Assembly: GCA_021732405.1 (NCBI GenBank)
Contig: JAKFVB010000002.1
Span: 33,739-97,738 of the forward strand
From: Methylotenera sp.
GTDB lineage: Bacteria > Pseudomonadota > Gammaproteobacteria > Burkholderiales > Methylophilaceae
Direction: 5' to 3'
Length of the DNA stretch: 64,000 nucleotides
Part shown: positions 1,020 to 63,372 of the stretch, piece after piece
Layout of the letters: the number at the start of each line of letters is the position of its first letter
Numbering within the stretch: the first letter of the stretch is position 1
Notes under the pieces: generated by a model
What the model was told of the DNA's origin: nothing
Database searches by the model: none
The model's input: only the letters and a program-made list of their open reading frames with translations
Position numbers and translations under genes: made by a program

Positions 1020-1478
1020 ATGGATGAGCCAATAAAAGATAGGAATGAAGACCAACTGGGCACAGCGATCTTGGCATTAAAGCCAAATTCATTGGATGAC
1101 ATTATCCGGAAAAATCGTGATCGCCTTCAATTGCGCTTGGCTAATGAATTTGAAATTCAAAATCTGCATTCAGACGTGGATGCCAGCGATCCAAAAGACA
1201 TCTTTGATGATTGGAGCCTAATCGCTTTCGTTACCAAGGATAAAACCTATCTGAGGTTAATTGGTGAAGTTAGAAGCTGTAAAAAGACAAAAATGACCAG
1301 CATCATTTTGAAGACGGATATGAGGCAAAACGTTGTAAGTACATTGTCTGGCAGCCTTTATCAATTAGGCACACCCAATATTGGTGAGCCGGATCTCGAT
1401 CAACGGATTTTTATTTGTTCATTTCTGCATGATGTTTGGTTGGGTCTTTCTTTTGGTGTGCCGGAATTTTTCTACTAA
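1020..1478 (+). CDS. hypothetical protein, paralog B of tandem pair
   Basis: Similar to 529..1008 along its length (GEVR, STLSGSLYQLGTP, WLGLSFGVP). Confidence 0.7.
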   Translation: MDEPIKDRNEDQLGTAILALKPNSLDDIIRKNRDRLQLRLANEFEIQNLHSDVDASDPKDIFDDWSLIAFVTKDKTYLRLIGEVRSCKKTKMTSIILKTDMRQNVVSTLSGSLYQLGTPNIGEPDLDQRIFICSFLHDVWLGLSFGVPEFFY

Positions 1479-1485
1479 AGACGCA

Positions 1486-2058
1486 ATGATTATTTTCTTA
1501 GACTTTGACGGAGTACTTCACCCTGACGCAGTGTTTAAACCAGCCAAAAAGCCAATTGAGCTTCGATTGCCTGGTCAGTTGATGATGCATGCTCAAATAC
1601 TAGAAAATATCTTAAATCCTTTCGATGTAAGCATCGTGCTATCGACAAGCTGGGTTCGCTCTATAGGTTTCTATAAAACACTCAAGAGTATGCCTACTGA
1701 GCTAGCTAGACGTGTCATCGGTGCGACATGGCATTCGGAAATGGTTGATAAAACTGTATATCCGTATGCTTCTGTAAAATATGCTGCTGATCCTTTTAAC
1801 TACTGGTCTAGGTTTCAGCAAATAGATCATTATGTGGTTAGAAATAGTGTTAAAAATTGGCTGGCGATCGATGATTTGCATTCAGGCACAGAAATAGAAA
1901 AATGGCCATTAAATATTCGAGACAATTTAGTACTAACGGATGGTGTTAAGGGTTTAGGCTGCCCTGATACGCAGAAAGATTTAATCAATAAATTATTCAA
2001 TTTTAAGATCATTCATTCAAGCGAAGGCCACTACAAAAAACAAGAAAAGGACGATTAA
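1486..2058 (+). CDS. HAD-domain protein (start at 1486 preferred over 1381)
   Basis: MIIFLDFDGVLHP HAD motif I directly at the internal ATG; the 1381 start would overlap the preceding CDS by about 100 nt. Confidence 0.7.
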   Translation: MIIFLDFDGVLHPDAVFKPAKKPIELRLPGQLMMHAQILENILNPFDVSIVLSTSWVRSIGFYKTLKSMPTELARRVIGATWHSEMVDKTVYPYASVKYAADPFNYWSRFQQIDHYVVRNSVKNWLAIDDLHSGTEIEKWPLNIRDNLVLTDGVKGLGCPDTQKDLINKLFNFKIIHSSEGHYKKQEKDD

Positions 2059-12517: not shown

Positions 12518-13441
12518 GTGAGCTTACTCCATGAAATTCAAGCCTCGCTACTCCAAGAAGGGGCTGATCTCGCACCTATACTTCTAAAACTAAGACTATT
12601 GGCAGCCAGAATTGGAAGTGTTCCTCTTGCTGAATGGGTTAGGCATGAGTCCGAGGGCTACCCAGATGATACAGAAATACCAAATTATCGACATATTGAT
12701 GTTTCTTATACAGCTAGTTTCGCCGGATCCTTTGGTAGGACCATTACTAACGCTCCAATTTCTCCCTTTATGGTAAGCAGCTATGCCGGTGAAGATTGGG
12801 TGCGAACTAATATGCGTGTCAGTATAGCCGCAGTGGACGATTTATTAACCTCAGCAGAAAATGGTAAAGAAATAGGAATAAACGCTGCCAATTTAATTCA
12901 TCTGTTTCAGGGGAATATATATCCTGATTACAATTGCCTTTCAGTTACTGGCCGCATCTCAAAATCGGCACTTGCTTCTATTCGCCATTCAGTGCGCAGT
13001 CGCATTCTAGAACTCACTCTTGAACTAGAAAAATCAATTCCAGGTGTCTCAGAAATAACTTTAGGACCTTCTGCAATTCCATCATTAATTAGTACAGTTG
13101 CTGCCAATCAGATTGCTCAGCAAATTATTTACGGTAACTATACTTCAATCGCAGTAAATGGTGATGGAGCCACAATTCGAGTTGGGGTCCTAGCAAATGA
13201 TACTAAAAGCCTAGAAAAATTTCTGATTGAATCAGGCATGGCCTCAGAAGATGCTATTGAGTTAGCAAATCTAGCGGAAACAGAGATGCCTGATAATATC
13301 GCCGAACCCATGGGTCCTCGTGTAAGTAGCTGGTTTGTTGAAAATATTAAGAAAGCCGCATCTGGAACTTGGAAGATGGGTGTTGCAGTTGCCACAGAAG
13401 TCATTAAAGAAGCGTTACTTAAGTTTTACGGATTTAAATAA
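12518..13441 (+). CDS. AbiTii-domain protein
   Basis: N-terminal MSLLHEIQASLLQEGADLAPILLKLRLLAARIGSVPLAEWVRHESEGYP is characteristic of the AbiTii domain. Confidence 0.75.
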   Translation: MSLLHEIQASLLQEGADLAPILLKLRLLAARIGSVPLAEWVRHESEGYPDDTEIPNYRHIDVSYTASFAGSFGRTITNAPISPFMVSSYAGEDWVRTNMRVSIAAVDDLLTSAENGKEIGINAANLIHLFQGNIYPDYNCLSVTGRISKSALASIRHSVRSRILELTLELEKSIPGVSEITLGPSAIPSLISTVAANQIAQQIIYGNYTSIAVNGDGATIRVGVLANDTKSLEKFLIESGMASEDAIELANLAETEMPDNIAEPMGPRVSSWFVENIKKAASGTWKMGVAVATEVIKEALLKFYGFK

Positions 13442-13656: not shown

Positions 13657-14088
13657 TCATTTTCTTGCTTGCCTAAAAAACCAACCCTTGAGCGTTTTCC
13701 AGAAATTCTTTGTGCAAGATAAAGTATTGATCAGCTCCAGATTTTTTTTGCTCAAATACTCAGCTTGATCCCGTTGATCTTTTTCCTGAACCCACGCAGT
13801 CTCTTCAAGTGACAAGGCTTTAGCCCAGACAATTTGGTTATTTTTTATCCAATAATGTGATTTACAGGCCATGTTCCAATTGCCAATTGAAGGATATAAC
13901 GTTACTTTTCCTTGGGTAACCCTTACTTGCCAGTGCGCAGGAGATAACGGAGTCATGACTTTTTCTCCACAACCGCAACTGCACTTGTGAACGGCTGCCT
14001 TGTATTTATAGCTAATATATAAAACCCCCTCCTCAAGGACAGGAGGGGCCAAATCTATAAACTCATGCTTTATCGTCGTCAGCTTCAC
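13657..14088 (-). CDS. DUF6527-like protein of a ubiquitin-like operon
   Basis: HEFIDLAPPVLEEGVLYIS, CSCGCGEKVMTPLSP, PSIGNWNMACKSHYWIKNN; overlaps E1 gene by 26 nt. Confidence 0.75.
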   Translation of the reverse strand: MKLTTIKHEFIDLAPPVLEEGVLYISYKYKAAVHKCSCGCGEKVMTPLSPAHWQVRVTQGKVTLYPSIGNWNMACKSHYWIKNNQIVWAKALSLEETAWVQEKDQRDQAEYLSKKNLELINTLSCTKNFWKTLKGWFFRQARK

Positions 14089-15292
14089 GCTTGGACCTTT
14101 CGTTGTGTACAGATCTAGTCAGTGCCTGCTGATTCACTGTGTAGATTTGGTTGTGCGAGTGCATTTGGTCAATATAGAAACCACAATATTGCTTCCACAT
14201 AGTGATTGCTAGCATGGCATTGATTACATTCATATCGGCAATTTGTATGTTGTCACTATACAAAGCATCACCACCCTCCTCCATGAAAGGAGCGCAATTA
14301 TCGAAGTGATCTTCTTGCTGTGGCGTGCACAAAGTAGCACGACATTGGCCATAGATACCTCTAGAAAGCTTTTTGTCGACCTTCAAGTCCATGCCACAGT
14401 CAATGAAAGGAATTTTCTTCTGACGCAGGAATTCACTTATCATCTTTCTAGCCGGACCACTATCTACGCAGATAAAGACAAAATCAAAGCCTTCAAGATC
14501 GCAGAGGTTGTCTTTGGTGACGTAGTAATTATGTTTGACCAACCCTTTGTGCATTGCAGAATACTTTCGGTGAAAGTACTCAGTTTTCGCCATGCCAAAA
14601 TCTGACTGTTTTGCTGCTCCTGGAGCACGGAATGCATTATGCATTTCGAAAACATCACCATCAAAAATATGGATTTCCCAAGAAGGTGTTTTGGCCACCT
14701 GATCCAGCACATATGACCCAGTTCCACCCAATCCAATAACGGCTGTCTTTTTTAGGGCAAGCCGTTCGGTCGTGGCAACATATGCACCTCTTAAAGAAGA
14801 TGCATCAGGATATTGAAAAGGTGTCGGTATCTCATTAATAACCGCCTCTCCTTCTTCACGTCTCCCTGCACTAGGGTCGAATGCCCGAGCTTGAAAAGTA
14901 ATAAGCGCATCGTAATGCTGAATCTGTTCTAGATGAGTCTTATAATGAGACCAACCTGGTTTTGATGGTTTACTAGAAAAGTGATAATTGGCTGAGACGC
15001 CTTGACCTAAATCTCCCGCTGTAGATTCCGGGGCGCCAATTGCCATTAAAGGTTTCCCGTCGGACATGCGGGGGAATTCACCATGAAACCAGACTTGGTG
15101 GGTGTTGGGAGGGGCGACCTGATCACCATTCATTATAAATGTTGTGATAAGTTTTCCTTTTTTGAGGGCTGGCCCATTTGCGACGTAAGGTATGTCATGA
15201 ACAATCAGGTAGTCCCCTTCCGCAGTAACCTTGAATCCAGCATCTACAAAAGGTTGCAATGCCTGATTAAGAGCGATTGGATTTGCCGACAT
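14063..15292 (-). CDS. ThiF/E1-like adenylyltransferase with N-terminal E2-like domain
   Basis: TAVIGLGGTGSYVLDQVAKTP nucleotide-binding motif, HIFDGDVFEMHNAFRAPG, DFVFICVDSGPARK; about 180-residue N-terminal domain; internal Met 15292 preferred as start. Confidence 0.8.
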   Translation of the reverse strand: MSANPIALNQALQPFVDAGFKVTAEGDYLIVHDIPYVANGPALKKGKLITTFIMNGDQVAPPNTHQVWFHGEFPRMSDGKPLMAIGAPESTAGDLGQGVSANYHFSSKPSKPGWSHYKTHLEQIQHYDALITFQARAFDPSAGRREEGEAVINEIPTPFQYPDASSLRGAYVATTERLALKKTAVIGLGGTGSYVLDQVAKTPSWEIHIFDGDVFEMHNAFRAPGAAKQSDFGMAKTEYFHRKYSAMHKGLVKHNYYVTKDNLCDLEGFDFVFICVDSGPARKMISEFLRQKKIPFIDCGMDLKVDKKLSRGIYGQCRATLCTPQQEDHFDNCAPFMEEGGDALYSDNIQIADMNVINAMLAITMWKQYCGFYIDQMHSHNQIYTVNQQALTRSVHNERSKREADDDKA

Positions 15293-15536
15293 TGAACACC
15301 ATACCTTCCTTAAGTTTTGCAGTCTCACCAGCTCTCAATTCTTTCGATTGCCCATCTTTATAGCTATACGTAATCGTGTAAGTGATTTCTGAATTATCCG
15401 AATCATCAGGATAAACAAGCTTGGCTACCTGTAGATAGCTAATCTCCTTGCCTTCAACGTAATACTCATTTAGGTCCACTATAATCATAGTGGTCTTGTT
15501 TTGCCCAGGGGCGTTAACTGCATTTTCATTCGACAT
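15267..15536 (-). CDS. multiubiquitin-type ubiquitin-like protein (single domain)
   Basis: Small beta-rich ORF ending EGMVFNVGKSNRS, typical of multiubiquitin-family Ubls; GGAG motif upstream of 15536 start; overlaps E1 start by 26 nt. Confidence 0.7.
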   Translation of the reverse strand: MSNENAVNAPGQNKTTMIIVDLNEYYVEGKEISYLQVAKLVYPDDSDNSEITYTITYSYKDGQSKELRAGETAKLKEGMVFNVGKSNRS

Positions 15537-15618
15537 GTTGGTCTCCGGAGGATTAATGTGAACCGCTGTTAAGGCAACTTTCAAGACTGAACCTAAACAT
15601 TAATGTAATGATATAACC

Positions 15619-15660
15619 ATACGAATTTGGTTGTCAAGATTTATCTATACGAAATCGTTT
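15619..15660. promoter_or_regulatory. candidate XRE operator: direct repeats ATACGAATTTGGTT / ATACGAAATCGTTT
   Basis: Repeats at 15619-15632 and 15647-15660 in the divergent intergenic region, 28 bp apart. Confidence 0.5.
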
Positions 15661-15681
15661 TAGTGATGTAAGATTTTACAT

Positions 15682-16032
15682 ATGAATATGATTAGTTTTG
15701 GAGTTCGACTGAGAAAATTCCGCATGGCGCGGAAACTTTCTTTGCAAAAACTTGCAGATGCAGTTGGTGCATCTAAAGCTCACATTTACGAACTCGAAAC
15801 AAATCGCTCCAATAATCCTTCGCTGGCACTACTCACATCCCTTTCGCGTGAACTAAATGTCCCAATCAAGGATTTAATTGGGGAAGGCTCTGAGGTTATT
15901 GAAGGTGAAGCCCCAGAATTAGCACCTTTGTTTCGTGAGTTAAGGGGATTGGGATCGGATGATTTGGAGATCATTAAAACCCTGACTCAGAAGCTGCGCG
16001 AAAGGAAAGATGCGGACAAGCCTGATCATTGA
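15682..16032 (+). CDS. XRE-family HTH regulator
   Basis: GVRLRKFRMARKLSLQKLADAVGASKAHIYELETNRSNNPSLALLTSLSREL. Confidence 0.85.
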   Translation: MNMISFGVRLRKFRMARKLSLQKLADAVGASKAHIYELETNRSNNPSLALLTSLSRELNVPIKDLIGEGSEVIEGEAPELAPLFRELRGLGSDDLEIIKTLTQKLRERKDADKPDH

Positions 16033-16897
16033 ACGCATCGATTTAGCTGATACTGGACATCCTGTCCAGTTGGCAGAGATTCTAACTCATCAATTAAAAG
16101 CTCAACTCCCCCAACTTCTACCGATCCTAATCGAGGACGTTGCTTTCGCTTGTGGCATTGAGGAAATCAAAGGCCTAAATACAGAAGGCTTCGAAGGAGG
16201 GTTAATCCAGAACGAAGAAAAAACAAGTGGCTACATACTGGTGAAGTCTACAAGCCGGGAAGATCGTCGTAGATTCACCATAGCCCATGAACTTGGACAT
16301 TTTTTAAATCCATATCATGTAGCCCCTGAAGGTGGACTCTGGTGCACCAAACAGGATCTTCGTGCTAGCGGACAATGGGATAATAGCAGGCTTGGAATTG
16401 AAGCGCAGGCCAATGAGTTTGCTGCTCACCTGTTAATGCCACCGACTCATCTAAAAACCATCTCTACATTATGGGGTAGCCCAGAAATACAAAACATTCT
16501 CAATCTTCAGCATCTGTGTAACGTAAGTAAAGAAGCCGCTTCAATCCGATATGTTGGTATGCACGGAGACTCTTGTGCCGTCGTTTTCACACATGAAACT
16601 AAGGTACGATATATCGTTTATGGTGGTGGCTTTCCGCGCATTTCAATAGAAAAAGGTCATTCTGTTGGACGGAAAACATTGACCCGCAACTATACTGGCC
16701 CAATTGGTAGCATCTCAGATCAAGAAGAATCCGACTCTCACCAATGGTTATTACCTAAAGATGCAAATCGGTGGAATTTATGGGAAGAGGTTCTGTTACA
16801 AACTGATTCATACCGTTTAACCCTACTTTTGGCAGAGGCCTCCAATCTGGATGAGGACGAAAAACTTATTGAGTCATGGACGCCTAAATTTCGTTAA
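16010..16897 (+). CDS. ImmA/IrrE-family metallopeptidase
   Basis: RRFTIAHELGHFLNPYH zinc motif; EAQANEFAAHLLMP; overlaps HTH gene by 23 nt. Confidence 0.85.
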   Translation: MRTSLIIERIDLADTGHPVQLAEILTHQLKAQLPQLLPILIEDVAFACGIEEIKGLNTEGFEGGLIQNEEKTSGYILVKSTSREDRRRFTIAHELGHFLNPYHVAPEGGLWCTKQDLRASGQWDNSRLGIEAQANEFAAHLLMPPTHLKTISTLWGSPEIQNILNLQHLCNVSKEAASIRYVGMHGDSCAVVFTHETKVRYIVYGGGFPRISIEKGHSVGRKTLTRNYTGPIGSISDQEESDSHQWLLPKDANRWNLWEEVLLQTDSYRLTLLLAEASNLDEDEKLIESWTPKFR

Positions 16898-62094: not shown

Positions 62095-63372
62095 CTAATA
62101 GGTCTCAGAAAGTTTAAAAGCTTGAGACATACTTTCTTGCTCTCTCAAAGGTATACCTATTGCATCTGCAACATTTCTCCATTGGCCAACAGTAAACTTA
62201 AACCGATCAATAGTATCGACTGCATCATGCTTGTTAATTCTAAAAAGATGAGCGACCGACAAGGCTAAGTCCAGATCCAACGCATTGTCATACTCACTGA
62301 TATTCAATTTTAATCCGTCAGATTGCGGTTCTGGATTCATGTCATAAGCTTCTGATAACCGCCACCCCTTCCCTGGAACCAATATAAAGCCATGATTTCT
62401 GAGGTGGTCATCAGTATTTGATACCAAAATATTAAAGACAATTCTGGACCACAATTCTTTTAAGTCTGCATTCGTATTTGCTCCATGATTAATGATGACT
62501 TCTGCTATTTCTAAGTAGCTCACGCCTTCTGCGGCACCATCTCCATCTTTATGGCCAGTTAATGTCATCGCTGATGCAAAATGTAATCGCTTACCTTCAT
62601 TTGTCCGATCGAAACGCTTAATTAGAAACGTATTATGTTTGTGATTACCAAATTTTTCCGCAATCGACTCAGGCACCTTTAAACCAATATCTAAAGCGAG
62701 TGTTTGTACCAATAGCTCCCAAGCACCCATATCTCGTTCATCTCTTACACTTGGAAATTTTGCAATCCACAAACTTCCATCTTGATGCGATACACTGGCT
62801 TTAGGGCGAGCGCCACCTAGAGAGCCACCCGGAGCAATTAACATTCTCAGCCATTCATTAGCATCGCTGTCCGAGTTGTTTTCATCATTCTCTAATGAAA
62901 TGCTTGCCTGCTGCAGTTCTCTTAAACTCGTAAATGGGGGAGCAGCTAAATCATGTTGGTCATCCAAGAAATTGCCTTGGTTATCTAATTTAAAGCGAAG
63001 GCCACCAACTCGAAATTGGTCATGTACCCCAATTAAATAGTCAGATTCATTCAATCTTAACTTAGTGTCTTTTAATCCTTTTCTTTGTTGACGTTCTAAG
63101 CGTCTTTTCATCAACATTCGCCCCCATCTGTCTGGACTAGAATCTGAAAACAAACCAAATATAGGGATATCAGCAGGTGGATATTGTCGACCCTCCAAAA
63201 AAAGGAGGCGAGGATCTAGGTACAAATCATTGAAAAGTGGATTTTCGAATGTGCTTTTAAGAAATTCAAACTCAAAAATTTCGCCACGGCCGCTAGTCCT
63301 TGCATGTAACCACCCCAAATGAGTAGGGCCAGGCAAACCATCCCAATCAGCATAAACTGCTATATCAGTCAT
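62095..63372 (-). CDS. hipA: HipA-family toxin kinase
   Basis: GLFSDSSPDRWGRMLM, APGGSLGGARPKASV, LVSNTDDHLRNHGFIL. Confidence 0.85.
   Translation of the reverse strand: MTDIAVYADWDGLPGPTHLGWLHARTSGRGEIFEFEFLKSTFENPLFNDLYLDPRLLFLEGRQYPPADIPIFGLFSDSSPDRWGRMLMKRRLERQQRKGLKDTKLRLNESDYLIGVHDQFRVGGLRFKLDNQGNFLDDQHDLAAPPFTSLRELQQASISLENDENNSDSDANEWLRMLIAPGGSLGGARPKASVSHQDGSLWIAKFPSVRDERDMGAWELLVQTLALDIGLKVPESIAEKFGNHKHNTFLIKRFDRTNEGKRLHFASAMTLTGHKDGDGAAEGVSYLEIAEVIINHGANTNADLKELWSRIVFNILVSNTDDHLRNHGFILVPGKGWRLSEAYDMNPEPQSDGLKLNISEYDNALDLDLALSVAHLFRINKHDAVDTIDRFKFTVGQWRNVADAIGIPLREQESMSQAFKLSETY

Follow-up and report, generated by a model that had tools for sequence, protein, structure and literature searches.

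The window analyzed here, a 64,000-nucleotide stretch of a Methylotenera sp. contig (JAKFVB010000002.1, positions 33,739 to 97,738), contains a five-gene locus that is probably a DNA-damage-inducible module for the activation, and likely the conjugation, of a ubiquitin-like protein (Ubl). Three minus-strand genes encode the Ubl, an E1 fusion and a DUF6527 protein, and a divergent pair encodes a CapH-like HTH repressor and a CapP-like M78 (ImmA/IrrE) metallopeptidase.

Results

Layout of the locus

The features of the locus are as follows (nt, nucleotides; aa, amino acids).

12518-13441, plus strand, convergent: AbiTii neighbor, PF18864 2.1e-38; not counted in the module
13657-14088, minus strand: DUF6527 protein, 143 aa, GTG start; PF20137 8.9e-25
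14063-14088, minus strand: E1/DUF6527 overlap, 26 nt
14063-15292, minus strand: E1 fusion (DUF6791 and ThiF), 409 aa; PF20590 2.6e-32, PF00899 1.5e-15, NF004804 464 bits
15267-15292, minus strand: Ubl/E1 overlap, 26 nt, read in two frames as Ubl tail and E1 N-terminus
15267-15536, minus strand: Ubl gene (Multi_ubiq), 89 aa, one beta-grasp domain; PF14452 6.3e-13
15604-15659, no strand: divergent intergenic region, pair of 28-nt direct repeats with 71% identity, candidate operator for CapH
15608-15637, minus strand: sigma-70-like promoter candidate for the Ubl operon, TTGACA-18-TATCAT, 11/12 consensus match
15682-16032, plus strand: CapH-like HTH repressor, 116 aa; HTH_3 1.5e-9, PADLOC capH 1.9e-19, PDB 7t5u 2.3e-8
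16010-16032, plus strand: HTH/protease overlap, 23 nt
16010-16897, plus strand: CapP-like M78 (ImmA/IrrE) metallopeptidase, 295 aa; PF06114 3.2e-12, PADLOC capP 4.6e-45
16286-16300, plus strand: HELGH motif of the M78 protease (HExxH present), by motif match

Pfam, PADLOC and NCBIfam agreed on the identities of the five genes. A sequence-only reading of this DNA had described three minus-strand genes with 26-nt overlaps at the Ubl/E1 and E1/DUF6527 junctions, divergent from an HTH and HExxH protease pair overlapping by 23 nt, and all of these coordinates were reproduced. Its naming of the three minus-strand products was borne out by the Multi_ubiq, ThiF and DUF6527 profile matches, and Pfam, PADLOC and the best PDB matches identified the HTH and ImmA/IrrE-type pair as CapH/CapP-like. 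It had also pointed to the AbiTii protein; this gene does adjoin the operon, but it is absent from the other surveyed loci, and a functional link is not supported.

The same reading had called the locus plasmid-borne, which the rest of the contig contradicts. The contig is 97,738 bases long, and 5' of the window it carries prs (ribose-phosphate pyrophosphokinase), pth (peptidyl-tRNA hydrolase), ychF, tRNA-Gln and tRNA-Met; thus, the locus looks chromosomal, possibly within an integrated element, rather than plasmid-borne. As for an attachment site, the 3' ends of tRNA-Gln and tRNA-Met had no copy elsewhere on the contig, and a search for plasmids nearly identical to window positions 1-25000 returned one CzcA fragment only. 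Further along the contig lie RNA-repair-like genes, a MobF relaxase (∼4 kb from the module) and metal-efflux genes. A cluster encoding HAD_SAK_2 (RNA-repair HAD), ankyrin-repeat, RNase_T and DSP phosphatase proteins occupies window positions 1381-2058 and upstream contig sequence (L023:14760-19474), after ychF and tRNA-Met. Positions 17147-62038 hold a series of heavy-metal P-type ATPase and RND efflux genes, and a HipA gene lies at 62095-63372.

A fixed overlap and a serine-ended tail

E1 searches of plasmids and genomes yielded 40 DUF6791-E1 loci including the window, with a few near-duplicates among them (e.g. L063/L064, L065/L069 and L018/L074). The Ubl/E1 overlap was exactly 26 nt in all 40, across at least three phyla, and the E1 start codon that sets it was ATG in 38 loci and GTG in 2. 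This fixed overlap is more than chance, and its length is most simply explained if both reading frames are under constraint. The second 26-nt overlap of the window, at the E1/DUF6527 junction, is a coincidence, because its length differs among relatives (1, 4, 11 and 32 nt). The class occurs in Pseudomonadota, Bacteroidota and Cyanobacteriota; relatives are common on plasmids (135 records), a scan of genome contigs found one, and no relative of the E1 was found in the phage records searched. The Acinetobacter johnsonii plasmid pXBB1-8 (L063, L095) has two Ubl operons, one of DUF6791 type and the other of Prok-E2_E/JAB type.

The Ubl of the window ends in ...GMVFNVGKSNRS, and tails of the class follow the consensus F-x-[VA]-x-x-[TS]-x-[KRQ]-S, with the F and the final S each present in 39 of the 40 loci and no Gly-Gly. 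The Ubl family profile matched PDB 9cd2, a multi-ubiquitin structure, at 1.2e-23; the C-terminus of 9cd2 (...TDKS) has the same Ser ending.

The E1 fusion and the DUF6527 protein

In the E1 fusion, DUF6791 spans approximately residues 11-163 and the ThiF adenylation domain approximately residues 173-335, with GLGGTGS at 186-192. The predicted structure (pLDDT 82.8) had Citrobacter BubCD as its top Foldseek PDB match (2e-12), and the sequence match to BubCD covered the ThiF part only. The alignment rows used for structure prediction came solely from the window and genome sequences.

The name “E2-E1 fusion,” given to this protein from its sequence, is an interpretation of the N-terminal domain. 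A fused domain on a ThiF E1 was indeed found, but it is DUF6791, its homology to Prok-E2_E is not significant, and residues 1-165 of the window protein contain no Cys. Among 33 aligned E1 fusions, no Cys column was invariant; the Cys of an FxGxxPC motif in DUF6791 was present in 28 and is Arg75 in the window, and two had no Cys anywhere in the domain. When DUF6791 was tried as an E2, hhalign against Prok-E2_E gave a collinear alignment that beat four controls and was not significant (P 0.014-0.033, probability at most 3%), and no global alignment was obtained. In the DNA examined around each of the 40 loci, neither a JAB nor a Prok-E2_E match was found (0/40 for each); the two co-occur in classic operons, which were retrieved separately.

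The DUF6527 protein is predicted to bind metal through the motifs HxCxCGC ... CxSHY, and in 31 sequences H34, C36, C38, G39, C40, C75, S77 and H78 were invariant. Its predicted structure reached pLDDT 85.7, and a fold search of this model against the PDB returned nothing below E 0.5.

Damage-linked regulators beside Ubl operons

The closest PDB sequence matches of the regulator pair were 7t5u for the HTH protein and CapP 7t5t (1.9e-8) for the protease, the latter being its sole PDB match. The pair and the Ubl operon are separated by a divergent intergenic region of 145 nt (15537-15681), and the same layout was seen in relatives. The 28-nt repeats there were picked out by eye and by a tool; the promoter match overlaps them, with promoter-like sites being no more numerous than in shuffled sequence.

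The sequence-only reading had made its proposal depend on a recurrent linkage of the regulator pair to such operons, and the neighborhood survey found the pair recurrently divergent from Ubl operons, including a second operon in the same genome. Regulators 5' of the Ubl gene at the 40 loci were distributed as follows.

CapHP-like pairs: 12 (L027 weakly)
CapW-like WYL: 6
HTH-M78 fusion: 1
GHKL and wHTH, CapKS-like: 1
UvrD helicase: 11
Other or unassigned: 9

Thus, a regulator of a DNA-damage-linked type stands at ∼31 of the 40. Two of the UvrD loci have M78-UvrD-PDDEXK fusions by Pfam directly 5' of DUF6791-type Ubl operons (L062:1792-5187 and L066:1791-5189); eight further UvrD-locus ORFs, including two fragments, match the capP profile, and one more was assigned by annotation alone.

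The assembly of the window, which is 89% complete, yielded no more than two M78 genes, and both are divergent from a Ubl/DUF6527 operon. The assembly holds two more Ubl operons, both on contig C7. The one at C7:52500-56169 (L022:4501-8170) is Bub-type, with a Ubl-Prok-E2_E fusion, a JAB-ThiF protein and DUF6527, and is divergent from its own HTH and M78 pair. The other, at C7:15804-17845 (L021:5805-7846), encodes a Ubl-E2_E fusion, a 176-aa protein and a ThiF protein; the 176-aa protein has no Pfam match and matches the JAB profile. Elsewhere, relatives of the window CapP lie in divergent orientation next to CBASS cyclase/HNH operons (L087-L089) or a TIR gene (L090), and the HTH and M78 pair therefore looks like a portable controller.

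Discussion

A proposed mechanism

It is reported that ssDNA switches on CapP, which cleaves CapH (PMC13373217). In the mechanism proposed for the window, the CapH-like protein would bind the divergent intergenic repeats and repress both the Ubl operon and its own. DNA damage, in the form of ssDNA that arises, for instance, as a phage replicates or during conjugation, would activate the CapP-like protease, which would then cleave CapH and release expression. The ThiF domain would adenylate the Ubl C-terminus, which ends in Ser in the DUF6791 class; DUF6791 would replace the separate E2 (Prok-E2_E) and the JAB of the sister Bub pathway, presumably passing the Ubl to targets; and DUF6527 may act as a metal-binding accessory or adaptor.

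Support for a damage-inducible Ubl module comes from the family matches, the CapP and CapH PDB matches, the match of the Ubl to 9cd2, the BubCD-like model of the E1, the damage-type regulators in the survey and the placement of both M78 genes of the assembly at Ubl/DUF6527 operons. Against it we count the non-significant homology of DUF6791 to E2, the replacement of the Cys by Arg75, the lack of a significant PDB fold match for DUF6527 and the nine loci with other or unassigned regulators. If the mechanism is correct, this would be a minimal three-protein Ubl system under direct DNA-damage control that dispenses with the usual deconjugating peptidase and cysteine E2. A further proposal, which we rate as rather improbable, is that operons of the DUF6791 class encode a Ubl pathway whose chemistry differs from that of both Bub and eukaryotic ubiquitination. 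Such a pathway would activate a native C-terminal Ser and operate without Gly-Gly, without a JAB peptidase to expose or remove the Ubl and without a strictly conserved catalytic Cys, its Ubl tail and E1 start being locked together by the 26-nt overlap conserved across phyla. Because the class is widespread and its Ser-ended tag is conserved, a handful of components would be enough to test its chemistry.

Adenylation-only relatives of ThiF exist, such as MoeB, and they provide a precedent for a reading in which nothing is conjugated: the E1 would merely adenylate the Ubl, which would serve as a carrier or in non-covalent assembly, and DUF6791 would not be an E2. The DUF6791 of the window, with neither a Cys nor significant E2 homology, and the Ubl tail without Gly-Gly are as this reading expects. 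On the other hand, DUF6791 is strictly retained in the surveyed E1s, and the fold of the E1 is nearest to BubCD, for whose pathway a 2026 paper by Ye et al. reports protein conjugation in its title (reference list of PMC13373217). We regard an absence of conjugation as unlikely.

What a conjugating module would be for is a separate matter. It may serve anti-phage defense proper, with the Ubl conjugated to phage proteins as in Bil (ISG15-like) or the infected cell killed; CapHP of the same subtype also controls CBASS cyclase/HNH operons, the relatives lie on mobile elements (the 135 plasmid records), and AbiTii adjoins the operon. Against this, AbiTii does not recur at other loci, the operon is missing a Bil-type E2 with an active Cys, and for Bub operons phage protection has not been demonstrated (PMC13373217, 2026); we consider defense a credible purpose that stops short of being the expected one. 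The module could instead act in general stress or in maintenance of a mobile element, damage or conjugative ssDNA inducing the attachment of the Ubl to host or repair proteins, and any phage resistance being a by-product. The prevalence of damage-type regulators, including UvrD/PDDEXK helicase-nuclease neighbors, and the nearby MobF relaxase speak for this purpose, but the same kinds of regulator also guard abortive defense systems, and we entertain it tentatively. Either purpose would be compatible with a damage-inducible Ubl module.

Comparison with known systems

Table 1, row 6e, of Iyer, Burroughs and Aravind (2006; PMC1779556) describes operons that combine a (poly)Ubl, a metal-binding protein that is a treble-clef candidate and an E1 carrying a fused JAB; in a subset, an unrelated, uncharacterized “domain X” takes the place of JAB. 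On the terms of that description, the window operon falls into the domain X subset, and its class was already described in 2006: a Multi_ubiq Ubl lies beside a ThiF E1, the N-terminal domain of the E1 is not JAB, and a Cys/His protein predicted to bind metal is present. Gene content, position and the conserved Cys/His residues suggest that DUF6791 corresponds to domain X and DUF6527 to the metal-binding protein “Y.” In the 6e description we found no mention of a CapHP pair, a constant 26-nt overlap or a Ser-ended tail.

The operon shares with Bub (Citrobacter BubA/BubB/BubCD; PDB 9ea4, 9ea5, 9ea8, 9eae and 9eav) a Multi_ubiq Ubl and a ThiF E1 of BubCD fold, and DUF6527 also occurs in the Bub-type operon of the same genome. 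Damage-type regulators are likewise common to both: CapW or CapH and CapP accompany 219 of 544 Bub operons and CapKS accompanies 59 (PMC13373217, 2026), so that CapH and CapP beside related operons have been reported. Bub has the JAB half of BubCD and a BubB-like Prok-E2_E, whereas the window operon has neither and carries DUF6791 where JAB would be. Citrobacter BubCD is matched nearly end to end (287 bits) by the JAB-ThiF protein of the C7 operon and is judged from this to be a JAB-ThiF fusion; since the window E1 matches it in the ThiF part only, we class the window operon as a sister to Bub rather than a Citrobacter-type Bub operon.

As in CapH/CapP of CBASS (PADLOC and PDB matches), a CapH-related HTH repressor and a CapP-related M78 protease with HExxH are divergent from the neighboring operon; the CBASS pair controls a cyclase operon, whereas the window pair adjoins a Ubl operon. 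Bil (bacterial ISG15-like) also combines a Ubl and an E1 in a single operon, but its E2 with an active-site Cys and its JAB peptidase have no counterpart in the window, where the would-be E2 domain has no Cys and the Ubl is of Multi_ubiq type without Gly-Gly. The operon class and its regulator linkage are therefore known, and what is distinctive is the conserved Ser tail and overlap, which make the chemistry testable.
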